IMG/VR virus record: IMGVR_UViG_3300044630_002215
Location: 1-43,578 of that record
Direction: 5' to 3' (one strand)
Source: a virus
DNA: 43,578 nt
Below the pieces are notes generated by a model. That model worked only from the letters and a program-made list of their open reading frames with translations, ran no database searches and was not told where the DNA came from. The translations under genes and the position numbers were made by a program. Shown one piece after another: positions 1,485 through 35,245 of the stretch (positions within the stretch are counted from its first letter, which is position 1; every line of letters starts with the position of its first letter).

Positions 1485-1991
1485 TTAAACGTATTTAAAA
1501 CTTGTTTTATTTTTCATATCCCCGCTCAACATTTTCCACATTTTGTTTTTGCTAATCCCTAAAGCATCTGCCGCCTCTTGCCCACCTTCATAGTAAATTC
1601 CAGTTGATTCATCTAATATAATCTTTTTATCTGGGGCAAATTGATAATTTGCAGCTAACCATCTTCCTGCTGCTCTTGTTGCTTCTGTTATTTCTCTAAA
1701 ATTATTTTCAACAGCATGAGTGACATTTTCTTGACGAGTCATCCATTCTAAATTACATAACATATTGTTAGTCTTATTTCCATCCATATGATTTACCTGT
1801 TCCTTGTTTTCTGGATTTGGTATATATGTTTCTGCTACTAATCTATGTACAGAATAGAACTTATTTTTGATATGTACTCTTAAATAATTAGAACCATTAA
1901 AATGCAGTTTTAAAAACCTCATAGTCTTTAATGAGAATATTTTCCCATCAACGGTTACTAGATATTCAGGATGTTCTTTTAATTGGCGCAT
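1485..1991 (-). CDS. HNH homing endonuclease (NUMOD4-HNH type)
   Basis: 168 residues. The N-terminus resembles NUMOD4 (a PEYLVTVDGKIFS strand pair). An HNH_3-like core follows: YSVHRLVAETYIPNP, then VNHMDGNKTNN and CNLEWMTRQENVTHA, giving His of VHRL, His-Met-Asp and the downstream Asn residues expected of the metal site. The C-terminal third (YYEGGQEAADALGISKNKM...) looks like a NUMOD1-type helix-turn-helix for DNA recognition. Such proteins nick or cut DNA and spread themselves into homologous phages. It stands free between a tail protein and the fiber, with its stop one base from the fiber start, and no intron is visible. It probably has no virion role. Confidence 0.85.
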   Translation of the reverse strand: MRQLKEHPEYLVTVDGKIFSLKTMRFLKLHFNGSNYLRVHIKNKFYSVHRLVAETYIPNPENKEQVNHMDGNKTNNMLCNLEWMTRQENVTHAVENNFREITEATRAAGRWLAANYQFAPDKKIILDESTGIYYEGGQEAADALGISKNKMWKMLSGDMKNKTSFKYV

Positions 1992-2533: not shown

Positions 2534-3052
2534 TTAGAAGAAATAACTTTGGTTTGTACTAATGAATGTCGCTCTGTTTAAAGCTGCTTGCGCACTGAAA
2601 ATATCAGACGCAAAAGATATAGCTTGGTATGCAGAATCTAATTCTACTCTAAGTATCATTTTAGTTTGATACCAGTTAGTGCTTGCTGTAAGATTTGCAT
2701 TTGCTACTTGGCTTTCAGTTAAACCATAATAGAAAGTTTCATTGTATGCTGTAAAGGCAAAGGATGTGGTTTTATTTGCTACCACCACATTTGAAGCTGT
2801 TAACCACTGGACAGTAATACTTAATGCTGTATCTTGTATTAGTACATTTAAACTAGTGGTTACATCCACCAATGCCCACTCAATATAATTGGTAGCAGTT
2901 CCCGCTGGTACCAAATAAGTACCATCTGATTGTAATAAATAAATTCTACGCTTAGTAATAGTTCCATCTGAACCCGTTGAGGTATCAGTTAAAAAAATTA
3001 AATTAGGCGTGCCGCTATTCTGGGATGCGGTAAAATTTGGGGAGAGAGGCAT
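2534..3052 (-). CDS. Putative tail structural protein, 172 aa
   Basis: Beta-rich protein without a recognised family. It has Ser/Thr-rich strands such as NLIFLTDTSTGSDGTITKRR and ALSITVQWLTASNVVVAN, and an aromatic C-terminus (NQSYFF). It is the first gene after a TATATTTG box at 3069-3076, which lies in the only sizeable gap in this part of the late block. This gene, the 175-residue gene and perhaps the fiber may therefore form their own transcription unit. A tail or adhesin-associated role is inferred from position only. Confidence 0.5.
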   Translation of the reverse strand: MPLSPNFTASQNSGTPNLIFLTDTSTGSDGTITKRRIYLLQSDGTYLVPAGTATNYIEWALVDVTTSLNVLIQDTALSITVQWLTASNVVVANKTTSFAFTAYNETFYYGLTESQVANANLTASTNWYQTKMILRVELDSAYQAISFASDIFSAQAALNRATFISTNQSYFF

Positions 3053-3089: not shown

Positions 3090-6000
3090 CTATTTTTTGT
3101 TTATATCCTTCTGTTTTGCTACTTCTGCTTCAAATAATATTGCAGGGACTGTAATTTCATTAATTTCCCTTTTTATTTTTTCCATGTCAATAACGCCATT
3201 TTGGAATTTAGGATTGTTTATTTTAAACTGCTCTAATCCCTCTTGAACTGCTTGTTGGTAATAATCTTTTAAAACTACGACTTTTTGAGCATCAGTCAAT
3301 TTGCTATATCTACCATATAAAGAAGATGCCATATCGTTTATAAAAGGTGATAATTGATTGTAATTTGCCTTACCTATAGCTATAGTTAAATCTCTTCTTT
3401 CTGATGGTGTTAATTTAATTTCAGTATCATCGACTTTAATTTGCTTTGGTATGGATGGTGGGAAAAAGTCAACATTATTTGTCCTTTGGAAATCATTAAA
3501 TATAATAGCTCCAAATTTGTCCTGACTTCCACTTTCCATCCCCATCATACTTCCCGCTACACCTAAAACAGAATTGTCGTTTTTAATAGGCTCTCCATCA
3601 AATATAGAAATTTTTGAAGGTGGATTTCCAGAGTCTTCTTTATATAAATTCATAGCTACACGAACTAAGAATTGTCTTTGCTTTGTATTGTTTACTATTT
3701 CTTCCCAAGCTGTTTCTCCTGTTAATTGTGCTTTGTATGGTAATGTATATCTGCTTAATTGAACCATTTCACTTCCGGTAATGGTTCCTACAGCATTATT
3801 AACAATATTATTAACAAAATATGATTTTGCTGCATTTCCACCCTTTTGGAATGCATCCATAACTCTAGCTCCTTGGTCAAAAACTAATTGATTCATAGAT
3901 GCCTTTGCAGAGTATGTCATTTCATCAATTATATCCATAGCCAATGATTGCTCTGGTTCACCTTTTAAAGCTCTTTGTTTTTTATCTTGTGCTATTTCAG
4001 CTTTTGTTTCTGCAATAGCTCCTAATGGTCCAAACCAAGTCAAATCAATCCAATAGTCTTCCCCACCATGTAAAGCACCCCAATTCAGTTGATTTTGTCT
4101 TCCGAATACTGATTCTCCTAATGATTCTTTTTCTTTAGTATCTCTATCATTTGATGGTCTTATAAACCCATTAGCTACTAGCCACGCTGCAGCATATGCT
4201 AACCCATATCCAACTACTGCATGTGTAAAAGCATCTTTAGCCTTTTCCTCATATTCTCTAGCTTTAGATGCATTACCATTTTTTTCATTTATTTTATATT
4301 GTATAGTATGAAGTGCTGACTGACTTAATGCAAATGCCGGATTAACTGCTTTAAAAGTTGACCATGCGACATTGGCTGGTATATTTATAAATGGATAGCT
4401 AGTGGTCTTTGCTATTGAAACAATACCTTTAGCCCCCTTAATTAATTTGCTATCTTCTTTACTTATCTTTAATGCTTTATCCACCCAGTCTGAAATTCTA
4501 GCTAAAAAACTTTTTTCTTGGAATACAGCTTTTTCGCCTTCGCTAATTATTCTATTAGCCATTTCCTCTGAAAGTGAAGCTGCATTTGGATTTTTTTCAT
4601 CACTTAATATCTTAAAAGCAACCTTTTGCGGCGCACGCATAAATGCAATTATATCAGTATCATTTATTAAGCCAAGCTCCATTACTGCAATTTGCATAGC
4701 TGTAGCTCCTTCAGCAGCATATCTTTGCGGCAGGTCACCCAATCCCATAGCTCTTAAAATAAAATCAGCTCTTCTTGCAGGCCATGATGCTCTTATACGT
4801 CTGTCAAGTAATTCTGTTTTAGTTAATAGTTTTTGGCCGGCTTTATAGAATTCAATATCTTTTATAGCTTGTTTTGGAGATAAACTACTTTGATACGCTG
4901 TTTTTGAATTAAAATCTGGTTGTGTTATACCTAATAAAAAGTTTTTATAACCTTGCTTAGCACCTCTTTTACCTTGTTTAAAATACCCTAAATTAGCTAA
5001 CCATAAACTAGACTTAGGCTTATATATAGGACTTTGCGAACTAATATATTTTTGATTTAACACACTTGCCCAATATAATCCTTGTTCTAGTATATTTTTT
5101 ACAACAGCTTTTGGGAATCTAAGTTGAGATTGATATACTATGTTATATACAGGGTTTTTTATTAAAGTTGGTATTCCTAATATTTGCCCTGTTATTAAAC
5201 TTCTTAATGTTTGAGTTATATCTGAATTTCTTGATAAAACATTATACATTTCCGTTGAAGCTAAACTTGCATCATCAACAGCTTTATCATAAACTTCTAT
5301 TGCTTTATTTAATTCCTTTTCATCACCATTAACAAGACTAATCATTTTATCTTCCAAGTCTTTGGTAGAATTAATAGTTGTCATTAAAGATTCAATATTC
5401 TTAACGTCTTCAGGCGATAATTCAGCAAGACCTATAGATTCTGCAATTATTTTTTTAAAATCATCATATTCTAAAGCACCATTTTCTATTAATCTTTTTA
5501 TAGACCTATTAACAATTTCTTCTTTTTGAATATCATTAATAGCTTTTAATTTTTGTCTAAAATTATCAAGATATTGTTTAGATTTTTTATCTATATATTC
5601 TGGTGATAATTTCTTTGCTTCATTATATAACTGTTTAATATCGTCTAATTCTTTTTTAGCTACAGTTGCTTTTTCAGATAATGTTTCTTTTTCCTTGTAT
5701 TTTTCAGCACTAAAATCATTTTCTTTTATTCTTCTTTCTAATTCTTTTCTTTTTCTATCTAATGCTTCAATGTATTTTTGTTCTTTCTTTTCTGACTCTA
5801 GTGTTAATTTATCTAACCAATCTTGCTTAAATGCATCTTTGTCCCAATTTTCAGTTCCTAATTTTTGAGATATATATCTAATAGCATCGTCTATAATAGC
5901 AGTTACTGACTCCCCGGCAGCATACGCTTTTTTCATTGCTTCAGCTGCTGTATTAATAATCTCTTCTACGCCGATACCCATTTTCTCAACTCCCTGCACT

Positions 6001-6941
6001 CCTGCTAACTTCTGAATCCAAAGTTTAGCTGTGTCGTCTATTTTTTTAAATATGTTTTCTTTCCTAGTCTTTCTTTGCTCTTGTCTTTCTTCTTTAAGAA
6101 TTTCTTCAGCCTTTTGTTTAATATAACCTTGTACTTCTTCTCCTTTAATTATTTGGTCATATAAACTTTTTAATGACAATTCATCTTTAGCAAATCTTTC
6201 TTTAAGCAATTGCTTTCTTTCAGTATTGATTTTCATAACAATACCTAATGGACTTGTTTTGTAAAATCTTTTGATTTGAGCTATCCATTGACCACTGCTT
6301 GTAGAAATATCGGAATATTCTGAAATCAAATCAGCTTGTCTTAATGCAAGGTCATCTGCTTCATTTGTTTTCCCGTCTTTTCTTAATGCTTGTTCTTGTA
6401 AAAAAAGATTGTTTATTGATTCCCCAAATATTGCTGAACCTACTGAAGGATGTACTTCGCCCGTCTTGGCTGCAATAATTGCATTCTCAACCCCAATATC
6501 TGCTATAATAGCCTTTGCAGCATTCTCTGCTTGCTCCATGTTAGCCTCAAAATACGTCCCATTCTCCTCTATTAGCATTTTTGTTTCTTCCGAAAGATTA
6601 GCGCCTAATAAAGTATTTAAGATTGCTTTTTTCCTTTCTCTTGGGGTTTTAATTTTTTCATTGTCTTCACCTTGGATGGCAGTTTTTTCCCCTTGCTTGC
6701 TTGGTTCCACTCTTGGACGTTCACCCCCTGTTTCTCCAGTTCCGCTCTGTGGACGTTGAAGTACCTTTCCTGTGCTAGGCTCTTGTACGGCATATTCTTT
6801 AGTTTTTATTTTTGACAAGTCTATATCACCATTTTTAACTAAATCATCTATGCCACCTTTTTCAAGATAAGCTTTTAATTCAGATTCAGTCATTGGGGTA
6901 CTAACCCCTTTTATGTCAATGTAATATAAACACTCTGCCAT
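3090..6941 (-). CDS. Large internal virion protein with LPD38-like region, 1283 aa
   Basis: Very long, mostly helical protein, likely packaged in the capsid and ejected with DNA. Residues about 1-100 are a small domain and a Pro/Gly/Glu-rich linker. Residues about 240-560 are highly charged, Lys/Glu-rich and probably coiled coil. A hydrophobic stretch (HAVVGYGLAYAAAWLVANGF) lies near residues 904-925 and could cross a membrane. The following segment (SVFGRQNQLNWGALHGGEDY, then WIDLTWFGPLGAIAETKAEI) resembles LPD38-type domains of phage polyvalent proteins. No enzymatic motif was recognised. It follows the ferritin-like gene by 10 bases. The ejection role is inferred from size, composition and position. 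Confidence 0.6.
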   Translation of the reverse strand: MAECLYYIDIKGVSTPMTESELKAYLEKGGIDDLVKNGDIDLSKIKTKEYAVQEPSTGKVLQRPQSGTGETGGERPRVEPSKQGEKTAIQGEDNEKIKTPRERKKAILNTLLGANLSEETKMLIEENGTYFEANMEQAENAAKAIIADIGVENAIIAAKTGEVHPSVGSAIFGESINNLFLQEQALRKDGKTNEADDLALRQADLISEYSDISTSSGQWIAQIKRFYKTSPLGIVMKINTERKQLLKERFAKDELSLKSLYDQIIKGEEVQGYIKQKAEEILKEERQEQRKTRKENIFKKIDDTAKLWIQKLAGVQGVEKMGIGVEEIINTAAEAMKKAYAAGESVTAIIDDAIRYISQKLGTENWDKDAFKQDWLDKLTLESEKKEQKYIEALDRKRKELERRIKENDFSAEKYKEKETLSEKATVAKKELDDIKQLYNEAKKLSPEYIDKKSKQYLDNFRQKLKAINDIQKEEIVNRSIKRLIENGALEYDDFKKIIAESIGLAELSPEDVKNIESLMTTINSTKDLEDKMISLVNGDEKELNKAIEVYDKAVDDASLASTEMYNVLSRNSDITQTLRSLITGQILGIPTLIKNPVYNIVYQSQLRFPKAVVKNILEQGLYWASVLNQKYISSQSPIYKPKSSLWLANLGYFKQGKRGAKQGYKNFLLGITQPDFNSKTAYQSSLSPKQAIKDIEFYKAGQKLLTKTELLDRRIRASWPARRADFILRAMGLGDLPQRYAAEGATAMQIAVMELGLINDTDIIAFMRAPQKVAFKILSDEKNPNAASLSEEMANRIISEGEKAVFQEKSFLARISDWVDKALKISKEDSKLIKGAKGIVSIAKTTSYPFINIPANVAWSTFKAVNPAFALSQSALHTIQYKINEKNGNASKAREYEEKAKDAFTHAVVGYGLAYAAAWLVANGFIRPSNDRDTKEKESLGESVFGRQNQLNWGALHGGEDYWIDLTWFGPLGAIAETKAEIAQDKKQRALKGEPEQSLAMDIIDEMTYSAKASMNQLVFDQGARVMDAFQKGGNAAKSYFVNNIVNNAVGTITGSEMVQLSRYTLPYKAQLTGETAWEEIVNNTKQRQFLVRVAMNLYKEDSGNPPSKISIFDGEPIKNDNSVLGVAGSMMGMESGSQDKFGAIIFNDFQRTNNVDFFPPSIPKQIKVDDTEIKLTPSERRDLTIAIGKANYNQLSPFINDMASSLYGRYSKLTDAQKVVVLKDYYQQAVQEGLEQFKINNPKFQNGVIDMEKIKREINEITVPAILFEAEVAKQKDINKK

Positions 6942-6951
6942 TTACTTTAAT

Positions 6952-7446
6952 TTAAACGTCTTGTATATGTTGGTCAAACTCTAATAGCTCTTTTGTTGCT
7001 TCAGCTATTTTATATTTAGCTAATAAATCACCATAATGACCTACTGCTTTACGTTGAATTTCAACGAATTGTAAAAGATATTGTGCTACAGAAACATCTT
7101 CGTCTTCTGCTTTTTTATAAAAATCTTTATATTGCTTATATACATCCATTTCAATGTTATAACCAACCTCTAATGCATCACCAATATCTTTTACTTTATC
7201 TGTAACGGCATCTATCTTTGGCAAATCTGCACAATCGCCCATATCATTCATGAACTCAACATGCATCTGATAATGAGTTAATTCTTCAGCACTTTCTGCT
7301 AAGAAATACTTCTGGCTACCAAAATAACCTAAACTTTGTAATTGGTTAGCTAGGCTTTTCCATAGGTTAGACTGATACAATTCAATGTAAACAGCTTCCT
7401 GCATGCCCTTTTTCATACTTGGGCTTAGTAATGATTTTACTGACAT
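6952..7446 (-). CDS. Ferritin-like protein
   Basis: 164 residues, the usual length of bacterial non-heme ferritin (FtnA). Aligned by eye with E. coli FtnA, the four-helix pattern is kept. IELYQSNLW (residues 21-29) matches helix A, with Glu22 for Glu17. ESAEELTHYQ (51-60) matches helix B, with Glu55 and His58 for Glu50 and His53. Glu99 matches Glu94. In helix D, QFVEIQRKA aligns Gln131 with Gln127, but Glu130 is replaced by Ala. The site-A iron ligands are therefore present and site B looks incomplete. FtnA oxidises and stores iron in a 24-subunit shell. The ATG overlaps the end of the 2115-residue gene by 10 bases, implying coupled translation with virion proteins. It could instead be a structural four-helix protein that has lost ferroxidase activity. 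Confidence 0.72.
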   Translation of the reverse strand: MSVKSLLSPSMKKGMQEAVYIELYQSNLWKSLANQLQSLGYFGSQKYFLAESAEELTHYQMHVEFMNDMGDCADLPKIDAVTDKVKDIGDALEVGYNIEMDVYKQYKDFYKKAEDEDVSVAQYLLQFVEIQRKAVGHYGDLLAKYKIAEATKELLEFDQHIQDV

Positions 7447-10400
7447 ATTTTTTTATTTTCTAATTGTTTCTTAATCTCTTCAAAGTTATCGTTTATTAGC
7501 GTTTTTACGGCATTTTTTGTTGACAATTTGTTGTCCCTTGGTATATTTTCGTACTCTTCTGCTACTGTTCCTGCTACTCTTCCACCAAGTAAATTACCAA
7601 AAACTTCTCTTATTTCTGGTGTTAATTCAATATCTATTGAAGAGCCTACTATTGATTTATATATTTGAGTTAACCAATTTTTTAAGTTTTCAAATACAGC
7701 TTTTAAAGATTTAGTAGGTGCTTTACCTTCTCTTAAATATCTTTCAAAGCCTCTAGCAAACATTTCTTCTGACCTTGTATTCCAATTATTATCAAATACA
7801 CTAGCCCACTTTTTAACTGCATCGTAATCTTTTTTAAATCCTTCGTCAGTTTCAGCTAATTTTTCAAGGAATCTTCTACCCAAATGGCCTGTAAATTCAT
7901 GAGCTAAAGTTGATATATCAGCACCATTAAATACATATACAGAAGCTTTATTGTCATTAACAAAATCAATTGCACCTTTAATATTACCTCCTTCATTTTG
8001 GAAAGCAATAATTGGATTTTTAATATCAGATTCATTTACCTTAGTTTCCAACCATTCCATATCATTATCATCTCTTACAGAAATAGCATCAGGTCTTAAT
8101 TTTTTAAATAATTCATTAAGCTCTTTATATTTATTTACTACAGTTGCTTGAGCAGAACTTAACCCATCTTCAAAATCCTCTTCATTTGATTCTGAATCAT
8201 ATCCATCCGGTTGATTAAACCTTTCAGTATTACCATCAGTAACATAAGCATCTCCATCACCATCATAATAAACAGTCCCCCACCCAAATAAATCTTCTCC
8301 CCCCATATTACTGTAGTTACTAGATATTTCATCTCTTAATTTATCTTCTATAGATTTCCATGAAACAGTTCTTATTTCTCCTTCAATTTCATTTCCAATT
8401 TCAATTTTATCAAATTCTATTTCTAATAACCTTTTAGCCAAATCACCCATATATTCATCAGGTTCATAATCTAAAAGTTCTGATAACGCAATATTATTTA
8501 AATCATCAAAATACTTATCAGCTTCATATTCTATTTCATCAAATCTATTAGCAGTTTCACTATCTATATAATCATCTATATTGTATCTAAATGTTTGTTT
8601 TCTTGGAGCTACTGTAATTTCAGCTCTATCTTGCTCAACTACAATATATTCATCTCCTCCATATTCTATTAAATCTCCGGCTTCTAACCGCTCACTATCC
8701 CCTTGAATAATGTCATATGGCGCACCACTTATGCCTGCTTTATTAACATAACCTTCAATTACCGCAAGAGTATATGGTGATGGGAATCTTACTACTTTAG
8801 CTCCTTCTTCAGCTGCTGATTTAAATGCTTCTCTTAATAATCTTAATTCATGGAATTTTTGAGATGCAATAAATTGTCTTTGCATAGAAGTCAAAGTACC
8901 CTTTTGCTCTTCTATTCTTTGTTGTTTATATTTTTGCCATTCTTTTTGAAATAAATTAACTTCACTCTTTAAATACAATTGACTCATTTCTTCATAATAA
9001 TCATCACGATTCCCTTCATACATATTTCTATGAGCATCTTTTATTGCTCTGTATGTTTCATTTTCACCAAATTTCATCCCCGGAGTAGGGAAACTTGAAA
9101 ATAATTGAGATGACAAATGTTTGCCATTTTTATCAAAAACGGATACGCCATCATCCCAACTATTTGGAAAAGAATATATTGATAATCCTTTTTGATATTC
9201 ATTATTTAATCTAATTAATTCATCTAATTCTTTATTAATCTGATTAAATTCCCTAGTAGTTTTAATTGTTTCTAAAGCTTTTTCATACTGATATATTTTA
9301 TTTTTATTTCTGTTAATCAAATATTTTATTTCACTTTGATTTATTACTTTGAAATCTAAATCTTTTACTAATTTATCTGTAAATTCTTTTAAAAATGGCC
9401 CCCAAAAATTTTTATTTATATATTCTTGTATTTCTGCTTGCGGTATTTCATCAGCTAATAAATCTAAAGCTTTATATTTTTGAAATACATCTGATTGCAA
9501 TTCTGCTACATTATACACACCATTTTTTTTGTTAAACCAAGTTCTTATATGACCAAATAAACCTACGTTTATTTCTGTAGTTTTATATGGGTTTTCTGAA
9601 GGATTTCTTTCATCAATCCATTTTTCTACATTTTCTTTTTTACCAGCAGTGCCTACATAATTTTGTATTTCACTTTCAGATAACCCAGATGGCATATCAG
9701 CAGCTACTGCAGCCCATGTGTCAGTGTTGGGTATTTGCTTTAATTCCCAAGTTCTATTTTCAACTCGTGACCTTATAAAATCACCACCAAAATGCCCAAT
9801 TTGGCCATGGTTTATAGGCGCATTAAATATAATTGTTTTATAATTTCCATAATCTTCAGCATTACCTAAATTACTTACTCCATAATCATCATAAGAATTA
9901 GTTCTTATTTTCTCAAGTTTCATTATTTGTGTTTCCACATCATTTCTAAAGTCGTCAAATGATATTCTTTTTAGACCTTTGTATTTTTCAAAGTTTAATA
10001 CATCGGTTATTATATCTTTTTCAATTTGCTTACCTTTTGATTTAATTAAATCAGCAATAGATTGAGGGTTAACCATTTGCCCTATCATTTTTTCAAATTG
10101 AGGTACATCTTCAAAAACAGCTAATGTAACTCTTGAAACAGGTGCAATTGGATTTTCTATATCTTGAAATAATACGCCACCTTTATTTTTAAATGCAGCT
10201 ACATCTCCTTTTTGAATATCTGATATGAATGTATCATAAAAGTTATCTAAACCTGTTGTTTGTTTCCACACCTTAGCCATTGCATCTAATAATGACATTT
10301 GTGCATCTATTTCTGCATCAGACATTGGTATTGGTTTAATCCCAACAGCTCTTTTGACCTTTCCTAATATTGACTTGTCAGCTGTTACTAAAACGCCTGC

Positions 10401-13400
10401 ATTTCTTAGGTTAATTAAAGTATCTTTTACTTCTTTCTTTTTAGTAGCATCTTTTTCGGCCTCTTGTTGTCTTTTTACTTCTGCTTTTTGTTCAGGGGTA
10501 AGTTTTACGGCTGGTATTAATTCTTCATTTTTAACCTGAGTTATTATTTCTTCAAATTCAGGGTCTGAGAATTCACCTACTTGCTCTGCTCTTAATTGAA
10601 TAGCATAGTCAAGCCCTTTTTCAGGGTTCTTAAATTCAATAGTAATTAATCTATCTGGCAATAAGCCTATTTCTTTATTTACTTTTTGTAATTGAAGTGT
10701 TATGGATTTAACATTACCATTCTCATCTAATTCAATTGGTCTTGGTACTACATCTGTAGAAGGTAATACAACATCTCTATCGGTAATTTGTTTTTCACCT
10801 ATTGAAGCTACTTTATTACCATCTTCATTGTATAGATTATAATTACCATCTTCTAATTTTAAATAACCACTTACGGTTTTACCATTTCTGTCTTTAAGGG
10901 TTGCTCTGCTGCCTTCAAATTGGCCAATGGCTTTGCTGACTGTTTTCTTTCCAACATCAACTCCAACACGCGTAATTGCGCCTTTTTGGGTAACTGTGCC
11001 AACTGTAGTCTTTGACTGATTTTCATATGTTAATATTTTATCTATTACAGGATTAATTAAATTCTTTAATGACTTGTTGTTTGTCTTAGATTGTAAATTT
11101 TCTAAAACTTGAGCTGCACTAAACAAATCTTCTTCATTAATAACTTCGCCATTATTTATCTTTTCAATGACTGGCTCTACTTTTTCTCTATCTTCAATTA
11201 CATATGGTAATACTTGTGAGAAATCTGGTTTTTCTAATTCTTCAGCTGGAGAACCTCCTTTATATGCCCCATCAGGCGCATCTTCGGGAATTCCAACTTC
11301 TTTCTTAATTTGACCAATTTCTGTATTTAACTCTTCATCATTAACCACACTAACTTTATCTGCAGCCTTTATAATATCGTTTATTTTACCATCTTGCTTC
11401 AATTGCTCATATTCTTGCATTGTCATAATTCTAGTTGAATTTTGACCGCCCGGTAGCGTTAAAACAATATATGGAGTAGTATTGTTTGAAATACCCTTTA
11501 AATCGGCCTGTGCTTGCCTTAATTTGCCCTCTAATACAGATTTGGCTGCTTGGTCTTGTTCTGCCTCTACATCTGCTTTTAAGGCCTCTACGTTTGCATT
11601 TAGAACTGTTATAACTTGAGCTTTTTCTGGGCTTACGCCTAAATCCTGCACTTTTTGCATACTTTGAGCAACATTCTGCAATTCTATTTTTTGTTCTTCA
11701 AATTGCTTTTCATTGATTACCCCAGTATTATAATAGTTTTGTAATACAATATTGGCAAAATCTAATCCCTGATTTTTAACTAAGTCGGCATAAAATTGAG
11801 TAGTTGGTTGAGTTGAGGCTGCATCTATTTTGCTAAGGGCTTTTCCAACAGCCGACATTACTCCAGATTGTCCAATTGTAGATAAAAATGTATCAGCTGC
11901 AATCTCTGGGTTTTCTTTAATAAATGAACCAATTCCTTTTGTATATCCGTTTTCTTTTGCTTGGTTATATTCTTGAATATATTCTGTTGGAATTTCCTCA
12001 GCTTGCTCTAAAGCGCCTCCTACAAAAAATGAGCCTATTTTACCTCCACCTTGTAATAATTTCATTGTACCTAAACCACCTAAAAAATAAAATGGTAATG
12101 TTATTTGGTTTGCTTTCTCTACTCTGCTTGCACTTTCGTATGCTTTATTAACATTGCCAGTTTCAGCAAGTTTTTGCATATAAGCATCTCCTGCATTTTG
12201 CATAGATTCCCCTTTGTAACCAGCATACCCAGCTGCTAAAGCACTTACCATAGGTATGGCGCCAAGACCTTGAGTAGCTAATCCAACTCCTAATGTTGGT
12301 AATAAAGTAGGGGCTGAAGCGCCCATAGATTGCATAGTACCACCTAGCGCCCTTTTATACCATTCTTTCCCATTCCAATCATATTGACCAATAGCAGTTT
12401 CATCTGCTGTTTGTCCTCTATTTAAAAGAAAATCAATAAATTTATTATCAGTACCATTCATTTGCAAATAACCTCCTATATCTGACAATCCTTTATTAAA
12501 TCCTGATATAAGTGATTTAGTTGCAAATGCTGGTAATCCTAATGCCATATCTGCTACTTTTCTTTGAGTATTTTTAGAATCAGCTAACCTTTGAGCTGCT
12601 CTATTATACACTTCATTTATTTTTTTAGCATCTTCTTTAGGTAAATTCTTAAATATTTCTGCACTTGTAACAGAACCTGAAATCTTTTTTAATTCATTTT
12701 CTATTCTGCCAAATCTATTATTAACCCTTACATTAACATTTCTAACCATCTTTTGATAATCTTGATTAAGCTGTGCTAATCCACTATCATATTCTGATTT
12801 CTTTTGGTCATATAAACCTTGAGCTGTTTGTTGGTCAAGTTGACCATTATTTATTTTTGCATTTAAATCAGCAACAAAACCACTAAAATCATTTCCTAAT
12901 TCATTTGCTGTTTGCTTAGCGTTATCTAATATTCCACTAGCCTCTTTTTCAGCCTCTTGTTTAATTACTGGTAAAATTGATTGTTGATTTGCGGACATTT
13001 TAGCAAACAAATTTTTTCCTTGTTTGCTCATTATAGAATTAATATTAATGCCAGCTTTTTTAGCTTCTTCATTAATAAATTTATCCATTGCAGGCTTATC
13101 ATAATCAGATTGCGCTCTTTTTTTAAGTTCTGCCAAAGCTGTTTCTCTTAAAAAAGAACCACCTCCTTTCGCTTTTATTTTTTCATCTAATATGCCTCTT
13201 GCTTTTTCAGTATTAAATACACCATTCTCAAATAAATTTTTATATCCATTATTTAATAATAGGTCATCTACACTAGAATAAATTTCTTTAGATTTTGACT
13301 TTAAAAGTCTATCATTTTCTGCTTTAGCTTTTGTATAATTCTGATTAACTATTTTATCTCTTTCGGGGTCATAAAAACCCGGAGCGCCCATTCCAGCAGA

Positions 13401-13784
13401 AGTGGTCTTTGAAGCTTTAGTATCTTCAAGAGCATCATATGCTTTCTTGACTTTATTTATAGATTCTTCAACTTCCGATAACTCTGTACTGATTTGTTTT
13501 GGCGCTACTGCAAAACCCCTTGTAACCATTTCTTGACCTTGCTCAAGAACGTCTTTGGATGGTAATCTTGATGGTATAGGGACAGATACGACTCCACCAT
13601 CTTTTTTTTTTAAATTATCTTGAAAATCATTAAAGTCTATAAATAAACCTTGAGTATTTTTATTTTTAGATATAAAGTCAAAAACTTCTTTAGGATTTGA
13701 AGCAATTTGATTTCTAAAATCATTTTCATCTACAAAAAGATTTGACTTAGAAACTACATTATATACATCTTTTATATCGGGCAT
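7437..13784 (-). CDS. Giant polyvalent internal virion protein with metallopeptidase domain, 2115 aa
   Basis: N-terminal helical region (about 1-450), then a Gly/Ala-rich hydrophobic segment near residues 480-525 that could insert in membrane (TLLPTLGVGLATQGLGAIP). A long middle part includes Gln/Lys-rich coiled-coil-like stretches. Around 1415-1440, HIRTWFNKKNGVYNVAELQS matches the polyvalent-protein motif usually written EIQSDW, and RLLREAFKSAAEEGAKVVRF downstream fits the same domain. The C-terminus is zincin-like: LAHEFTGHLGRR with His1962, Glu1963 and His1967, and a likely third ligand in SEEMFARGFERYL (Glu2006/2007). The spacing is HExxxH, not the classic HExxH. Phage polyvalent proteins are injected with DNA and act on host targets. 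Substrates here are unknown. Confidence 0.75.
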   Translation of the reverse strand: MPDIKDVYNVVSKSNLFVDENDFRNQIASNPKEVFDFISKNKNTQGLFIDFNDFQDNLKKKDGGVVSVPIPSRLPSKDVLEQGQEMVTRGFAVAPKQISTELSEVEESINKVKKAYDALEDTKASKTTSAGMGAPGFYDPERDKIVNQNYTKAKAENDRLLKSKSKEIYSSVDDLLLNNGYKNLFENGVFNTEKARGILDEKIKAKGGGSFLRETALAELKKRAQSDYDKPAMDKFINEEAKKAGININSIMSKQGKNLFAKMSANQQSILPVIKQEAEKEASGILDNAKQTANELGNDFSGFVADLNAKINNGQLDQQTAQGLYDQKKSEYDSGLAQLNQDYQKMVRNVNVRVNNRFGRIENELKKISGSVTSAEIFKNLPKEDAKKINEVYNRAAQRLADSKNTQRKVADMALGLPAFATKSLISGFNKGLSDIGGYLQMNGTDNKFIDFLLNRGQTADETAIGQYDWNGKEWYKRALGGTMQSMGASAPTLLPTLGVGLATQGLGAIPMVSALAAGYAGYKGESMQNAGDAYMQKLAETGNVNKAYESASRVEKANQITLPFYFLGGLGTMKLLQGGGKIGSFFVGGALEQAEEIPTEYIQEYNQAKENGYTKGIGSFIKENPEIAADTFLSTIGQSGVMSAVGKALSKIDAASTQPTTQFYADLVKNQGLDFANIVLQNYYNTGVINEKQFEEQKIELQNVAQSMQKVQDLGVSPEKAQVITVLNANVEALKADVEAEQDQAAKSVLEGKLRQAQADLKGISNNTTPYIVLTLPGGQNSTRIMTMQEYEQLKQDGKINDIIKAADKVSVVNDEELNTEIGQIKKEVGIPEDAPDGAYKGGSPAEELEKPDFSQVLPYVIEDREKVEPVIEKINNGEVINEEDLFSAAQVLENLQSKTNNKSLKNLINPVIDKILTYENQSKTTVGTVTQKGAITRVGVDVGKKTVSKAIGQFEGSRATLKDRNGKTVSGYLKLEDGNYNLYNEDGNKVASIGEKQITDRDVVLPSTDVVPRPIELDENGNVKSITLQLQKVNKEIGLLPDRLITIEFKNPEKGLDYAIQLRAEQVGEFSDPEFEEIITQVKNEELIPAVKLTPEQKAEVKRQQEAEKDATKKKEVKDTLINLRNAGVLVTADKSILGKVKRAVGIKPIPMSDAEIDAQMSLLDAMAKVWKQTTGLDNFYDTFISDIQKGDVAAFKNKGGVLFQDIENPIAPVSRVTLAVFEDVPQFEKMIGQMVNPQSIADLIKSKGKQIEKDIITDVLNFEKYKGLKRISFDDFRNDVETQIMKLEKIRTNSYDDYGVSNLGNAEDYGNYKTIIFNAPINHGQIGHFGGDFIRSRVENRTWELKQIPNTDTWAAVAADMPSGLSESEIQNYVGTAGKKENVEKWIDERNPSENPYKTTEINVGLFGHIRTWFNKKNGVYNVAELQSDVFQKYKALDLLADEIPQAEIQEYINKNFWGPFLKEFTDKLVKDLDFKVINQSEIKYLINRNKNKIYQYEKALETIKTTREFNQINKELDELIRLNNEYQKGLSIYSFPNSWDDGVSVFDKNGKHLSSQLFSSFPTPGMKFGENETYRAIKDAHRNMYEGNRDDYYEEMSQLYLKSEVNLFQKEWQKYKQQRIEEQKGTLTSMQRQFIASQKFHELRLLREAFKSAAEEGAKVVRFPSPYTLAVIEGYVNKAGISGAPYDIIQGDSERLEAGDLIEYGGDEYIVVEQDRAEITVAPRKQTFRYNIDDYIDSETANRFDEIEYEADKYFDDLNNIALSELLDYEPDEYMGDLAKRLLEIEFDKIEIGNEIEGEIRTVSWKSIEDKLRDEISSNYSNMGGEDLFGWGTVYYDGDGDAYVTDGNTERFNQPDGYDSESNEEDFEDGLSSAQATVVNKYKELNELFKKLRPDAISVRDDNDMEWLETKVNESDIKNPIIAFQNEGGNIKGAIDFVNDNKASVYVFNGADISTLAHEFTGHLGRRFLEKLAETDEGFKKDYDAVKKWASVFDNNWNTRSEEMFARGFERYLREGKAPTKSLKAVFENLKNWLTQIYKSIVGSSIDIELTPEIREVFGNLLGGRVAGTVAEEYENIPRDNKLSTKNAVKTLINDNFEEIKKQLENKKICQ

Positions 13785-13790
13785 TGTGTA

Positions 13791-15221
13791 TTATTTATAT
13801 GTTCCACCACTAGCTATAAAATTACTTCTATCTGATAATGACATTTTTTGAAATTCGGTTTTTGTAATAACTTTACTAGTTTTATTATCTGACGAAGGAT
13901 TTGCGACTGCTGCTTTTTCTAGCCCAGCATTTTTTCCTAAAAACTGCTGATAAAATGATGATAATTGCGTAATAACATTACCAGTTAAATCTATTGTAGA
14001 TTTTACTGGTACTGCTATTGCCTTACCATCCTTCATAACTTTTTCATTATAATTTACAATTATATTTTTAGGATTCCTTGGGTCAATTTCCATATCTTTA
14101 AAACCTATAAAACTACCTGTTATATCTCTATCACCTTGTACAGCAAATTTAGAAAAATGTTGATTTATTAAATCAATATTACCGGAATTTAATATATTAG
14201 CTCCTTTAGTTATAAAATCAAATGCATCTGGTGCATTATTTTTTGTAATACCAGAATAGTATGCTTGTCTTTTTCTTTTATATTCTGGAATTTCTTCTGC
14301 TTTTGACTTCTTTATTTCTGAAGGAACAAAACTTAATGTATTAGCAACAGATATTTCACCCAATGCGTTTTTTTCTTGTTGCTTTAATTCACTTAGTTTT
14401 AAAGGGTCTGTTGTAGTATTTATTTTCTTTCTTATTTCAGCAATATCTGGCAAATCGTTATTTGTTTCTGCTTTATATATTTTTCCTAATCTTTTTAATT
14501 CAGTTGCATCATTTGAAATGTCTTCAATTTTTACATCATAACCTCTTTTACCCATTTGCCCATATGCTATGCTTCTAACATCTTCAAGATTTGGTTTTAC
14601 TGTTTTTTGTTCGTATTGGTATTGTTTTGGCAATTGTTCTAATGGAACTATTTTAATGTCAGCATCTGAAAGTCTAACTGCATTTTTTAATTTCCCTTGA
14701 TACTCAAGTGCATCAAATGGCTTATAGGTTCTAAAGTTTGTTATATTGAATGGTTGGTAACCACTATTTACAGGAAGTTGAGATGCTTCAAAAGCTTTAT
14801 ATGTTTCAGGTTCTAATATCTCTCCGCTATTATTTGCGCGGGCAATTAAAGAACCTGTAGCTTTCGTTGTAGCTACTTTATCTTTAGAAGCTGCTATAAG
14901 TTTTTCGGCATTATCGTACAATGACATTAAATTGCTATAAGCTTTACCATTATCTAATGCAGTATTTGTAATTTCTTTTTTATTTTCAAAAAAATATTTT
15001 TTGGCTTGATTTTTTAAAGACATCAATCCATCTATATCATTTTGTGCCATACCAGCCCCAGTGATTTTAGTATCATAATCAAGAAGATATTTAGTCATAG
15101 CTTCTTGCTTAGCTTGTTCTTTTTGAGCAAGTTGAATAGCTAAATTTGCTGGTTTAGATGTTATATCTAAATTTAATCCTTTTTGATATGGGTTTATTCC
15201 TAGTAATCCTGTTGCTGCCAC
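13791..15221 (-). CDS. Putative internal virion protein, 476 aa
   Basis: Soluble, charged protein with no recognised family. The N-terminus (MAATGLLGINPYQKGL, then NLAIQLAQKEQAKQEAMTKY) is followed by helical segments. The middle and C-terminal parts are mixed alpha/beta (GSFIGFKDMEIDPRNPKNII). It lies between the 261-residue Gly/Ala-rich protein and the giant polyvalent protein, with 6- and 17-base gaps. This three-gene order (small, medium, giant) is reminiscent of the gp14-gp15-gp16 internal-core cassette of T7-like podoviruses. The analogy is positional; no sequence similarity to those proteins is claimed. Confidence 0.55.
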   Translation of the reverse strand: MAATGLLGINPYQKGLNLDITSKPANLAIQLAQKEQAKQEAMTKYLLDYDTKITGAGMAQNDIDGLMSLKNQAKKYFFENKKEITNTALDNGKAYSNLMSLYDNAEKLIAASKDKVATTKATGSLIARANNSGEILEPETYKAFEASQLPVNSGYQPFNITNFRTYKPFDALEYQGKLKNAVRLSDADIKIVPLEQLPKQYQYEQKTVKPNLEDVRSIAYGQMGKRGYDVKIEDISNDATELKRLGKIYKAETNNDLPDIAEIRKKINTTTDPLKLSELKQQEKNALGEISVANTLSFVPSEIKKSKAEEIPEYKRKRQAYYSGITKNNAPDAFDFITKGANILNSGNIDLINQHFSKFAVQGDRDITGSFIGFKDMEIDPRNPKNIIVNYNEKVMKDGKAIAVPVKSTIDLTGNVITQLSSFYQQFLGKNAGLEKAAVANPSSDNKTSKVITKTEFQKMSLSDRSNFIASGGTYK

Positions 15222-15238
15222 TTTTTATTATTTAATAA

Positions 15239-16024
15239 TTAATATTCTGGATAGAAAGATTCACCTTGAATTTGTGGATAATTATCTGCTTGACGTAATC
15301 CACCAAGATTATTTTGATAAGTTTTGCCAAAAGCAGATTTAAATCCACCAAGATTTGCTCCTAATGAACTTAATGTTGAATATTTACCATAAGGAGAACC
15401 CGGTATATTTGAAGTTAATGCTGATGGTGTAGAAACAGGTGTTTTAGCTGCTGCACCTGCGCCTCCGTAAATAGAACCTAACATATAATTACTTGCCGCA
15501 CCGCCTATCATACTTAATCCTGCATTAAATCTCTCATTTGCTGCTTGAGATTTCATTTGTTTTATACCTAACATTGTATTAAATGGAGTAGCTTGATTTA
15601 CATCATAAAGATATCTATCTTGAGCTGTTTTCATTTGAGTTGCACTACCTAATTGACCAAATCTTGCGTTTCTTTGTGCTTCTGCTTGCACTCCTAAATT
15701 TTGCATAGCAGCATTTTGACCAAGGGCTAATCTACCAATTCCACCAATTGCAGAGCGTCTATCTTGCAATGCTCCAATACCTTGAGCTGTTGCTCTTTGA
15801 GCATTCATTGCGCCTACTTGATATTGCTGAGATTGATAAGGATTTTCATTATATCTATTTAAAGCTTGTTGATAATAATTATCAAGAGATGCACTAGATT
15901 TTGCTAGTGGTCTTTGTTTAGCAAAGCTTTCAAAATCTCTTTCAGCTTTTCTTGCACCGCTTGTAGCAGATTGAATTATACCTATTCCTGCTTGCGCTAA
16001 TGCTGGTACTAATAATGGTAACAT
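15239..16024 (-). CDS. Small Gly/Ala-rich internal virion protein, 261 aa
   Basis: Low-complexity protein rich in Gly, Ala, Gln and Ser. The N-terminus is hydrophobic (MLPLLVPALAQAGIGIIQSA). A Gln/Ala/Arg helical middle (AMNAQRATAQGIGALQDRRS) and a glycine-rich segment (IGGAASNYMLGSIYGGAGAA, about 170-190) follow. This composition fits small membrane-active internal proteins of podoviruses. A TATATTTG box at 16086-16093, inside the end of the upstream gene, could start a transcript for this gene and the internal-protein genes after it. Confidence 0.5.
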   Translation of the reverse strand: MLPLLVPALAQAGIGIIQSATSGARKAERDFESFAKQRPLAKSSASLDNYYQQALNRYNENPYQSQQYQVGAMNAQRATAQGIGALQDRRSAIGGIGRLALGQNAAMQNLGVQAEAQRNARFGQLGSATQMKTAQDRYLYDVNQATPFNTMLGIKQMKSQAANERFNAGLSMIGGAASNYMLGSIYGGAGAAAKTPVSTPSALTSNIPGSPYGKYSTLSSLGANLGGFKSAFGKTYQNNLGGLRQADNYPQIQGESFYPEY

Positions 16025-16037
16025 ATATAATTATTTT

Positions 16038-16589
16038 TTATCTATTATTCAATGGTGAATTGATATATTTGGTAGTTGCGCTGTTCAAATATACGAAAGA
16101 ATTGGCACTTGTTTTCTCAAATTTTATGACCATGTAACCACCCTTCAAGCTATCGCCCTCTACAAGGCCTCCGGGACTGTTAGAATCCCTTAAAAATGAT
16201 GCTTGATACTCAGCTTCCAAAGTTGCAAAATCAGACTCTAAAAGCAAGCTTGTTTGGCTTGTACTAACCCCACTTGTATTCATTTGGGTAGTTATTACTG
16301 GACATGCCCATATGGTATTACCCGTTTCCATAACAGAAATCCAAGTCTTTTTATCTATTGAGGCTGTATTGAAAACAGTGGTTATTGAGGCGCCATATTG
16401 TGTGCCATAAAAGTTACAATAGTTTGTACTATTCGTATGCCTCCAAATACCCCCATCTTTGAACGAGAATAGGGTAGTATTTAGCTCCCCCATCATCTCT
16501 GGATGATATGAATAAAAAGACTCAAATGAGTTACCTACCTCGTCAAAGGCTATGGTATATGGGTCTTGATGAAAAGTTAATATTGCCAT
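16038..16589 (-). CDS. Putative tail/nozzle-associated protein, 183 aa
   Basis: No named family. The segment FYSYHPEMMGELNTTLFSFK, with DGGIWRH, YCNFYGTQYG and ITTVFN downstream (residues about 25-75), is a pattern I associate with virion proteins of crAss-like and related Bacteroidota phages, where it accompanies tail hub or nozzle components. The C-terminal half ends in GGYMVIKFEKT. It lies 9 bases after the 1938-residue nozzle gene, so the two products probably work together. Confidence 0.5.
   Translation of the reverse strand: MAILTFHQDPYTIAFDEVGNSFESFYSYHPEMMGELNTTLFSFKDGGIWRHTNSTNYCNFYGTQYGASITTVFNTASIDKKTWISVMETGNTIWACPVITTQMNTSGVSTSQTSLLLESDFATLEAEYQASFLRDSNSPGGLVEGDSLKGGYMVIKFEKTSANSFVYLNSATTKYINSPLNNR
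16086..16093 (-). promoter_or_regulatory. Candidate internal promoter, -7 box TATATTTG
   Basis: Leftward TATATTTG inside the 3' end of the 183-residue gene, 62 bases before the next ATG (16024). The extended sequence TCGTATATTTG is identical to the box at 24811-24818, which raises it above a chance match. It would drive the internal-protein genes. Weak because it lies in coding sequence. Confidence 0.3.
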
Positions 16590-16598
16590 TTTTATTGT

Positions 16599-19500
16599 TT
16601 ATAATTGAGTACAGTTTGTATTATCAGAGCAATCTGTTGCAAATCCTCCGAAAGAAATGGTAGGAGAAGAAGCTGTTGCACCTACGAAACTATCTATATA
16701 ATAACATTGTGTAGGTATAGTGCCTGTTATATGATAATATGACCCAACAGATAATGAACTAGAAGTAATAATATTGCTTGTTCCTCCACTGCAACTTGTA
16801 GCAGTATATTCAAAATTAGGAGGTGGTGGCGGTTCGGTTGTGGTTGTTGTAGGAGCGGCAGTAGTAGTTGTTGTAGTTGGCGCAGCTGTTGTAGTAGTTG
16901 TTGTAGTTGTACAAGAATTGCCTGCATTTCTCACTAAAGACCTAGTACCTGAATATACATATACATATCGTGTTCCGCTTACTTGTCCTGTGAAAGACCT
17001 AGTTCCACCTGTTACTAATGTTGTGGCTCCTGCGGCTGCTGATACAGCATCGCCATAAGTTGTAGTGTTAGCATAATAATTTGTACCATCACCACCAGCA
17101 AAGTTGTTAATTGTAATTGTTTGAGTTGTACCAGTACAAGTTGCAGTTATATCATAAGTTACAGGAGGTAATGTAGTAGTTGTAGTCGTCGGGGCAACAG
17201 TTGTTGTTGTAGTTGTTGGAGCGGCTGTTGTAGTAGTTGTAGTAGTTGTAGTTGTAGTACAATTTGGTGTTATTGTTTTAGCTAAAACATTACTATTATT
17301 TACTGCATCTCTTAATGCAACCCAGTATTGTTGATTAGTACCAATAGGGTAAGTTTTGGAAGTAGTAATTGATACAAATACCCCACCATAAGCAGCTGAT
17401 TCACTTGTATATAATTGAGTTGAAATTTGATAAGTTCCAGCTCCACCAGTAAACGCATTGGCTGTTATTTGACTACCTATTCCAGAACAAGTATAAGACA
17501 GAGTAAAATTAACTGGCGGTAAAGTAGTCGTAGTTGTCGTTGTAGTAGTTGTCGTTGTAGGAGCGGCAGTTGTCGTTGTTGTAGGAGCGGCAGTAGTTGT
17601 AGTCGTTGTTGTAGCACAAGAATTTCCGCCATTTTTTACCAATGACCTAGTCGCGGAATATGCATATACATAGCGAGTTCCTACAGCTTGAGATGTGAAT
17701 GTTCTAGTTCCACTAGTTACTAGTGTTGTTGCACCCGCTGCCGCTGACACTGCATCTGCATATGTTACTGTGTTAGCGTAATAATCAGTACCATCCCCGC
17801 CTGCAAAATTATTAATTGTAATATCTTGGGCAGTTGTACTTGTACAAGTTGCACTAAAATCATAAGTTAAAGGGGGTAAGGTCGTTGTTGTAGTTGTTGT
17901 GGTCGGACAAGTAGTAATTTCAAATGAATGAGCTATTTTATCGCTAATATTATTTTTATCTCTTAATGCTACCCAATATGTTCCAACAGCCAATCCAGTA
18001 AAAGTTCTTGTTGCTACAACGTCTGTATAAGTCCCTGCTAAGGCTAAAGCTTCGCTAGCATAGGTTGTACTTGATGCTTGATAAAGCCCAGAACCTCCAC
18101 TAAAACTAATCATAGCACCTACCCCATCACTAGAGCTACCATTCTCACATCCGCCAGAAGTATCAAAACTTACAGGAGCTACTGTTGTAGTAGTTGTTGT
18201 AGTAGGAGCTGCAGTAGTTGTAGTTGTTGCACAAGAATTTCCACCATTTTTAACTAATGACCTAGTTGCTGAATATGCATATACATAACGAGTCCCTACG
18301 GCTTGACCTATAAATGTTCTAGTCCCGCCAATTACCAATGTTGTTGCCCCAGCTGCTGCAGCTACCGCATCATCATATGTTACTGTGTTTGCATAATAAT
18401 CAGTACTATCTCCGCCAGCAAAGTTGTCTATTGTTATATCTTGAGCAGTTGTGCTTGTACAAGTAGCTGTAAAATCATAAGTCAAAGGTGGTAAAGTAGT
18501 AGTTGTAGTTGTAATTGTGCAAGTAGTAATTTCAAATGAATGAGCTATTTTGTCACTAATATTATTTTTATCTCTAAGGGCTACCCAATATGTTCCAACA
18601 GCTAAACCACTAAATGTTCTTGTTGCTACAGCGTCTGAATAAGTTCCCGCTAAAGCTAATACTTCGCTTGCATATGTTGTAGTTGATGCTTGGTAAAGAC
18701 CAGAACCACCACTAAAACTTACCATTGCGCCTACGCCATCACTAGAGCTACCATTTTCACAACCTCCAGAAGTATCAAAACTTACAAGTGCTTGAGTTGT
18801 TGTAGTAGTCGTTGGAGCCGCAGTTGTAGTTGAAGTTGTCGTAGTTGTAGTTGTAGTAGTAGTTGTTGTAGTAGTTGTTGTAGTTGGAGCCGCAGTTGTA
18901 GTTGAAGTTGTTGTAGTAGTAATAAATCTATTAATTTCCTCCATAGCAATTATATACTTATTAGTATAAGCATCAAATACACCATAAATACAAGGGTTAC
19001 CTAAATATGTTAATTCATTTGAAATACCATTATTTAACTCTTGTCTATATGCACTTAATGTAGCCACAAAAAAAGCATTCATTTTGTTAGTAATACTTAT
19101 TGCAGTAATACCATCTTGACTTAACCTACAAACAACACCTCTGTAATTATCTACAAAATAATCAGCAAAGTTATTCCAAGCTAAACTTGTTGCCGCATCT
19201 CCAATACCATAATCACCTGCATAATACTGAATTTTATTAATTAAAACATCTGTATTAGCTTGCAATGGGTTATTAGCACTATCTTTTAATATTTGAGTTA
19301 AAATAGGCACATTACCTACTTTAAACTTTTGATAAACCTTTAAATATCTATCTCTAACATGCAATCTTATTACATCTCCAAAGCTTCTATCGTATTCATC
19401 AAAGTTTTCGTAAAAGAATCTATTAGTACCGTTAATATTGGTATTAAATTGATATGCTTGTCCAAATCTAATTAAAGTAGGGAAATATCTTTTAGCTGCA

Positions 19501-23194: not shown

Positions 23195-23467
23195 TTAATT
23201 ATTTGTTGCGTAAGCTAATATATCATTGTGACGAATCAAGAAATGCAATTCATCGTTTAATAAAATGGCCTCCCCTGCTCCCTTGATATGAAAAATAATA
23301 TCATCTTTTTTTGCTTCCATTTTTATTTTAGCTGTGCCTCTTCCAGTAGAAACTACTTTAGCCTTACAGCTTCTTTCTATGTAGTTTTCAGGTAAAAATA
23401 AACCTCCCTCTGTAATACCTTCTGCCATAAATGGCTTTACTAAAACTAAATCTCTAATTGGTTTCAT
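23195..23467 (-). CDS. groES: GroES-like co-chaperonin
   Basis: 90 residues, close to the 97 of E. coli GroES. The start KPIRDLVLVKPFMAEGITEG matches the GroES N-terminal strand and mobile loop. GGLFLPEN (residues 21-28) corresponds to GGIVLTGS, and LFL replaces the IVL tripeptide that binds GroEL. KAKVVSTGRG matches RGEVLAVGNG. DDIIFHIKGAGEAILL and the final IRHNDILAYA match the GDIVIF roof-strand region and SESDILAIVE end. Phage co-chaperonins such as T4 gp31 redirect host GroEL to fold capsid protein. Here the gene is between two ring-protein genes, with 2- and 4-base gaps, suggesting late expression and perhaps folding of connector or nozzle proteins. No GroEL gene is in the window. Confidence 0.85.
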   Translation of the reverse strand: MKPIRDLVLVKPFMAEGITEGGLFLPENYIERSCKAKVVSTGRGTAKIKMEAKKDDIIFHIKGAGEAILLNDELHFLIRHNDILAYATNN

Positions 23468-28791: not shown

Positions 28792-29172
28792 TTAAGGTGC
28801 TGCTGTTGTCGTTGTCGTTGTATTACCTTGTAATAACAAATATTTACCAATAATACCAAATTCAACAATACCAGCTGCTGCAATTGATGCAACATCTGTT
28901 TTGGTTGTCAAATTAACTCCTAAAACCGAAACCCAGTTAATTGGTACTTCTGGTGCAGGGGATAATTGTCCTGTAATAGAACCATCATCGTTGGTAGTAC
29001 TGAAACTAACTGTTCCAGATGTACCTACAAATTGTACTACTGCAGAATCCCATCCAGATAAATCTTGGTAAAAATTATTATTAGCATTAAAGGAATCTGT
29101 CGCATCTACAACTGTGCTAATTTTTGAACTAAATTTTTGTAGTCTTATTAAAAGTTTACTTACCGTTGCCAT
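28792..29172 (-). CDS. Small structural protein with Thr-rich C-terminal tail, 126 aa
   Basis: Compact beta-rich domain (VATDSFNANNNFYQDL, then WDSAVVQFVGTSGTVSFST and WVSVLGVNLTTKTDV), resembling small capsid-decoration domains. It is followed by the tail NTTTTTTAAP and the stop. The same TTTTTTAAP motif ends the rightward 123-residue protein and links modules in the nozzle, which suggests a shared surface feature of the virion. It lies between portal and scaffold genes. No family was recognised. Confidence 0.5.
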   Translation of the reverse strand: MATVSKLLIRLQKFSSKISTVVDATDSFNANNNFYQDLSGWDSAVVQFVGTSGTVSFSTTNDDGSITGQLSPAPEVPINWVSVLGVNLTTKTDVASIAAAGIVEFGIIGKYLLLQGNTTTTTTAAP

Positions 29173-34873: not shown

Positions 34874-35245
34874 ATGGCAAATCACTTATCGGTTTATGTT
34901 TATCGTAGAAATCAATACGATTTAAACAACCCAAATGGCACACCTGCGACATCTGGTGTATTATTCTCATTACCTACGGTTGGCTTACAAGTTCAACCTA
35001 CTACTGTGGTAGCAAATGGAGTACAAATGAATTCATTAATTCTTATGTACCCTAGTGGTCTTAATCAACCAGCTGAAAAATTATATAGTGCTGCAACAGT
35101 TGCACAGATAATTACAGCTATTAATGGTGGTGGTATTGTTACAACTACAACAACAACTGCAGCACCAACCACTACAACAACAACTGCAGCTTCAACAACA
35201 ACTACGACTGCAGCTCCAACCACAACAACAACTGCAGCACCTTAA
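34874..35245 (+). CDS. Small probable virion protein with poly-Thr/AAP tail, 123 aa
   Basis: Residues 1 to about 87 form a small beta-rich domain (VYVYRRNQYDLNNPNGTPAT...). They are clearly paralogous to the next gene, sharing RNQY, NGTPATSG, VANGV, MNS, GLNQ and STVAQI/ATVAQI-type blocks. Residues 91-123 are a low-complexity tail of Thr runs broken by AAP and AAS. The A-rich leader is identical to that of the capsid gene, which suggests high expression. I infer a decoration or surface protein whose Thr-rich tail projects outward. It is odd that it sits on the opposite strand from all other structural genes. Confidence 0.55.
   Translation: MANHLSVYVYRRNQYDLNNPNGTPATSGVLFSLPTVGLQVQPTTVVANGVQMNSLILMYPSGLNQPAEKLYSAATVAQIITAINGGGIVTTTTTTAAPTTTTTTAASTTTTTAAPTTTTTAAP

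Follow-up and report, generated by a model that had tools for sequence, protein, structure and literature searches.

What does a ferritin gene do between two giant genes of a phage, and where would its product act? The locus lies in an IMG/VR virus record of 43,578 bases, analysed here as a whole and referred to as the window. The original prediction had placed at 6952–7446 a ferritin-like product with the helix pattern of E. coli FtnA; these coordinates are right, with the 164-aa open reading frame on the minus strand, and two of the checks that it had proposed, a profile search and a structure prediction, the latter done for the monomer, both favour the ferritin family. The best Pfam model for the product was Ferritin (PF00210), at 52 bits against a curated cut-off of 24.5 (E 9e-14), with Rubrerythrin also above its cut-off (30.6 bits against 22.8), and a genome-wide profile search returned the same PF00210 match at 51.9 bits. 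The PDB sequence matches listed were ferritins throughout (T. maritima 1z4a, E 1.4e-7), at identities to solved ferritins of only ~18–24%. AlphaFold predicted five helices with a mean pLDDT of 93.4 and a pTM of 0.86, and Foldseek matched this model to the solved, FtnA-type ferritins of V. cholerae, E. coli and T. maritima at TM 0.91–0.94. The model shows the four-helix bundle of the ferritin superfamily (PF00210), followed by a helix E (residues 154–161) that aligns to FtnA, as expected of a maxi-ferritin; residues L155, F157 and D158 of this helix, which is absent from Dps and rubrerythrin, are invariant in a 22-member alignment of phage ferritins. By profile, PDB sequence match and predicted structure, the 164-aa product is a true ferritin.

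Two scans of IMG/VR recovered 35 and then 64 loci encoding relatives at 44–93% identity, and a scan with the protein of locus L094 added two further diverged relatives, L101 and L102; relatives of the phage ferritin are present on ~70 IMG/VR contigs. Among pairs with a usable synonymous distance, dN/dS was 0.035–0.11, indicating strongly purifying selection. Since so many viral loci encode relatives and the gene evolves under this constraint, the reading frame is not a chance one. That the ferritin is functional is very likely.

To examine the diiron site, we aligned the phage proteins with human H-ferritin and FtnA, whose reference sequences had been verified against the PDB chains. Residues E22, E55, H58, E99 and Q131 align with E27, E62, H65, E107 and Q141 of human H-ferritin (mature numbering), and all five are invariant in both the 22-member and a 14-member alignment of phage ferritins; together they form the site A and site B ligand set of a catalytic (H-type) ferritin. 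Four of them (Glu22, Glu55, His58 and Glu99) had been foreseen, and Gln131 is kept as well. The original prediction had also pointed to an alanine in place of the site-B Glu130 of FtnA. This alanine (A134) is indeed there, but it does not break site B: human H-ferritin has Ala144 at the same position, so Ala134 is the ordinary H-chain arrangement, and we ruled it out as the sign of a dead site. The diverged phage ferritins L094 and L095 have a Ser at the equivalent position.

The likeness to FtnA and vertebrate H-ferritin (PF00210) thus comprises the fold, the five helices, the E-E-H-E-Q ligands and helix E, and with vertebrate H-ferritin also the alanine. Conversely, the phage protein differs from FtnA in the loss of the site C acids (E126 replaced by Ile, E129 mostly by Lys), and it scored 25.6 bits against the 178-bit cut-off of the FtnA equivalog model (NCBIfam NF007638); its NCBIfam matches included neither a Dps nor a bacterioferritin model. 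It further differs from both references in that the conserved Tyr24/34 of H-type ferritins is replaced by a tryptophan (Trp29) in the window and the main clade, with Tyr retained in the diverged members L094, L095 and L096. The best reading of these residues is a catalytic H-type, non-haem ferritin of the 24-mer class, which would have ferroxidase activity and assemble into a 24-mer cage.

The ferritin gene lies inside a minus-strand block that runs from the terminase (31641–33689, minus strand) and the portal (29195–31585, minus strand) through capsid and tail genes to the giants and a tail-fibre-like open reading frame. Among the relatives, the gene occupies three positions. In arrangement A it stands between two giant genes, at 31 loci that correspond to 30 distinct contigs including the window, because L091 repeats L035; in arrangement B (36 loci) it lies between a portal-like gene and the next two genes, whose scaffold and capsid identity is assigned by position; and in arrangement C (three loci) it follows a single giant. 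Some of these contigs are near-copies of one another. All five of the most diverged relatives (L094, L095, L096, L101 and L102) have arrangement A. Every locus compared has the ferritin within the virion-gene block; whichever of the three arrangements it has, the gene is on the virion-gene strand and overlaps its upstream neighbour or lies within a few dozen bases of it. It is therefore highly probable, judging from gene order, that the ferritin is produced as part of the virion block.

Between groups A and B the terminase is only ~25% identical, as against 76% for the ferritin, 91% for a primase-like protein and 75% for the SSB, indicating gene exchange among these phages and arguing for strong mosaicism between the two groups. 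The primase-like gene (36402–38261, minus strand), so similar across groups with distant terminases, also occurs in the L143/L142 region of G001. A family tree built in order to date the moves between sites left most deep forks without resolution.

In the window, the ferritin was said to lie between two giants and to overlap a 2115-residue frame by 10 bases, and both statements hold. The upstream giant, U (7437–13784, minus strand; 2115 aa), overlaps the ferritin start by these 10 bases and contains a zincin-like motif, HEFTGH (aa 1962–1967), within a phrog_9880 match (aa 1601–2067). The downstream giant, D (3090–6941, minus strand; 1283 aa), begins 10 bases past the ferritin stop. Relatives with and without ferritin were located through a conserved 172-aa neighbour (2534–3052, minus strand), which served as an anchor and was found on 37 contigs: 25 have the ferritin, 11 have none, and on one, L121, the sequence begins too late for a call. 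Ten of the 11 ferritin-less relatives contain one long giant open reading frame, of 1921 to >3262 aa (some of them truncated at a contig edge), and the remaining one, L137, a D-like protein alone. The single giant of L114 aligns through residues 60–587 to residues 48–561 of the U of L115 (74%) and through residues 1751–2668 to residues 35–938 of the D of L133 (61%); likewise, that of L128 aligns through 641–1174 to residues 840–1370 of the 1377-residue U of L116, and through 1140–1890 to residues 38–838 of the D of L136. Because the single giants of ferritin-less relatives align in this way to U and D, the ferritin cassette, in these best cases and as judged by alignment, occupies the point where a giant gene is split. 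The relatives compared gave no fused single-gene homologue of the window's U and D; the window D does align, at 33%, to the protein that stands alone in L137.

One ferritin-less relative, G006, is 99% identical to the window in terminase and major capsid protein and 92% in the portal, and its 67 kb contig contains no ferritin, which means that the ferritin is not needed for the virion.

The split giants have remodelled ends. The C-terminal end of U (U-box, ..INDNFEEIKKQLENKKICQ; 7440–7514, minus strand) and the N-terminal module of D (D-box, MAECLYYIDIKG...MTESELKAYL; 6843–6941, minus strand) are conserved and were not found in unsplit giants; their consensus sequences are ..NF[DE]..., ..KIC and M[AG]..C.Y...YTE.ELK.YL, respectively. 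The D-box was present at all 31 between-giants loci, at none of 39 loci with the ferritin elsewhere and at none of 11 ferritin-less ones; the occurrence of the U-box tracked it, except in L094, where no U-box was detected. Models of the boxes from which the window and the diverged members had been left out recovered the window copy of the D-box (E 3.9e-11), plus those of L101, L094, L095 and L096, and the window copy of the U-box (E 1.5e-5), plus that of L101 (0.007); L102 was weak for both. One caveat is that in many of these phages the last U codons overlap the ferritin start codon, an overlap that favours a Cys codon there; however, L101, L102 and L096, with an overlap of at most one base, also have a Cys near the end of U. 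The boxes may link U to D, bind the ferritin or act as packaging marks. They could dock the split cargo halves onto a packaged ferritin cage, a virion-internal hub that would organise or accompany the ejected cargo, although we regard this as unlikely; they need not bind ferritin, because arrangements B and C have the ferritin without boxes.

Are the giants virion cargo? Upstream of them lies a muzzle-like virion structural protein (16599–22415, minus strand; 1938 aa; phrog_14478, E 1e-53), followed by a 183-aa protein (16038–16589, minus strand) that matches the C-terminal domain of the crassvirus muzzle only weakly (21 bits against a cut-off of 27) and aligns to the muzzle proteins of phi38:1 and Elemovirus. 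Next come a 261-aa protein (15239–16024, minus strand) and, in the same block, a 476-aa protein (13791–15221, minus strand) that occupies a crassvirus cargo position by gene order only, and then U, the ferritin and D. The giants thus have a post-muzzle position, with weak signatures in the window, where the muzzle and ring-2 matches fall short of their cut-offs and that of an SU10-type adaptor exceeds its own; in phi38:1 and Elemovirus, the equivalent gene scores above cut-off for the muzzle domain. The L101 giants on either side of the ferritin have the polyvalent-protein domains LPD23 and ART-PolyVal, and they match a PHROG named virion structural protein that also matches phi38:1 gp101; Pfam searches found no LPD23 or ART-PolyVal domain in the window's own giants. 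The crAss001 muzzle is gp44; mass spectrometry detected the cargo proteins gp45, gp46, gp47, gp49 and gp50 in virions, the cargo zone in the capsid amounts to ~5.1 MDa, and the authors propose that ejection proceeds through partial unfolding (PMC10172136). The window giants resemble this packaged cargo in their place after the muzzle and their giant size, and on gene order and homology they are probably virion cargo, as the original prediction had supposed; no ferritin is mentioned for crAss001 (PMC10172136). Many upstream giants, U among them, share an N-terminal module ending in LKKK (13593–13784, minus strand), which is possibly a cargo-loading or processing signal. It contains F-containing repeats, and the start of phi38:1 gp101 looks similar by eye.

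From this arrangement we favour, at a probability of about 0.5, a catalytic-type ferritin that is co-produced and most likely packaged with the giant cargo, and that oxidises and locks away Fe(II). Encoded in the virion-protein block, and presumably expressed late, from a cassette formed by U with its new C-terminal end, the ferritin and D with its new N-terminal module, it would be made together with the giant cargo and then most likely accompany it into the virion. Inside the particle, or in the host cell once ejected and refolded, the ferritin would oxidise and sequester Fe(II) and so shield DNA and proteins, packaged or incoming, from reactive iron. Packaging itself we judge, by analogy with the neighbouring genes, close to an even bet. 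The ferritin has neither the LKKK-ended module nor a D-box, so no shared packaging signal is seen, and an assembled ferritin cage, at 12 nm, is too large for the portal, so delivery would need unfolding.

A serious alternative, tentative as it is, holds that a functional ferritin is made late in the infected cell and stays there unpackaged, sequestering iron freed by the breakdown of host proteins and so limiting Fenton damage to replicating DNA; its location among virion genes would then set only timing and dose. This agrees with a complete and invariant ligand set, and with a dispensable gene that varies over three positions, as other accessory genes do, and the authors who described Dps and Mn-catalase of gut phages (PMC8008677) and Dps of Lactobacillus phages (PMC6669764) interpreted them in this manner. 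However, the ferritin was found only in the virion-gene block, and one arrangement is tied to a remodelled giant with new end boxes, which goes beyond the needs of timing. It appears quite improbable that the ferritin fold was exapted for a structural or docking role in the virion, devoid of iron chemistry: the constant adjacency to virion genes in the loci compared and the Trp29 of the main clade would suit such a role, but the five diiron ligands are invariant even at ~43–49% identity, when many other positions vary, and the diverged L094–L096 keep the Tyr. Finally, a 'Ferrojan horse', in which the ferritin would supply the tail with iron so as to take advantage of the host's iron uptake, is very improbable, because its precedents, a ferritin-like gp217 (by fold prediction) detected by mass spectrometry in the Vi01-like phage Sajous1 (weak; PMC10892097) and an annotated ferritin near tail and baseplate genes of Thermus phage phiLo, are set against neighbours that here are giant cargo-type, portal and scaffold-like genes and not fibres, a closed cage that holds its iron inside, an infection of the Sajous1 type that is independent of TonB or FeoB (PMC10892097), and nothing here that points to the tail over the capsid.

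Phage ferritin-like proteins are already known, mostly read as free stress-response enzymes. Such proteins are likewise encoded by Thermus phage phiLo_88, Sajous1 (gp217), an uncultured marine phage (A0A8D9C9X5) and Siphoviridae ctrzs15 ('ferritin heavy chain'); that of phiLo_88 is near tail genes, like the window ferritin, and those of phiLo_88, A0A8D9C9X5 and ctrzs15 show ~19–29% identity to it. To our knowledge, none of these four has a split giant gene or U- and D-boxes. The Dps proteins of Lactobacillus phages and 'Gratiaviridae' also represent the iron-oxidising ferritin superfamily in phages, although Dps is a 12-mer without helix E and the genes of the Lactobacillus phages are near replication genes, unlike the window ferritin among cargo genes. 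What stands out here is a catalytic-type ferritin in the cargo block, at the split of a giant gene with remodelled ends; the split giant and its boxes are the most unexpected part, beyond the original finding. If packaged, the ferritin would place within the virus particle a protein cage that carries out metal chemistry of its own, which would bear on the way phages deal with iron and oxidative damage during entry. The effect of the cassette can be tested, since close relatives that have or lack it exist in nature.

Among 50,697 phage records, no close relative of the ferritin was found in named isolates (best matches ~21–29%), nor was a ferritin present in the parts read of the isolate-related phages phi38:1, Elemovirus and ctfjg026. 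At the loci inspected for it, neither an additional ferritin nor a giant with a fused ferritin was found. The idea that the gene was recently acquired from a host gained no support, two motif scans of 84,980 prokaryote genomes having given no confirmed relative; these scans required short phage-type motifs and would miss ordinary ferritins. A defence role was also dropped, as PADLOC had no match to the ferritin or the giants. The terminase is nearest to those of MW202828, Elemovirus (Flavobacterium) and Cellulophaga, Tenacibaculum and Maribacter phages (22–29% among the matches listed), which suggests Flavobacteriales as hosts, and the ferritin phages are best read as a lineage of uncultured, crAss-like-tailed podoviruses.

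Three other features of the window deserve mention. Thr-rich repeats of the TTTTAAP type occur in the muzzle-like protein (16599–22415, minus strand) and in nearby small proteins (34874–35245, plus strand; 28792–29172, minus strand). A Cpn10/GroES-like co-chaperonin (23195–23467, minus strand; PF00166, 53 bits) is encoded between tail-ring-like and structural genes. Lastly, an HNH endonuclease (1485–1991, minus strand; PF13392) has relatives at several sites of the structural block on other contigs.
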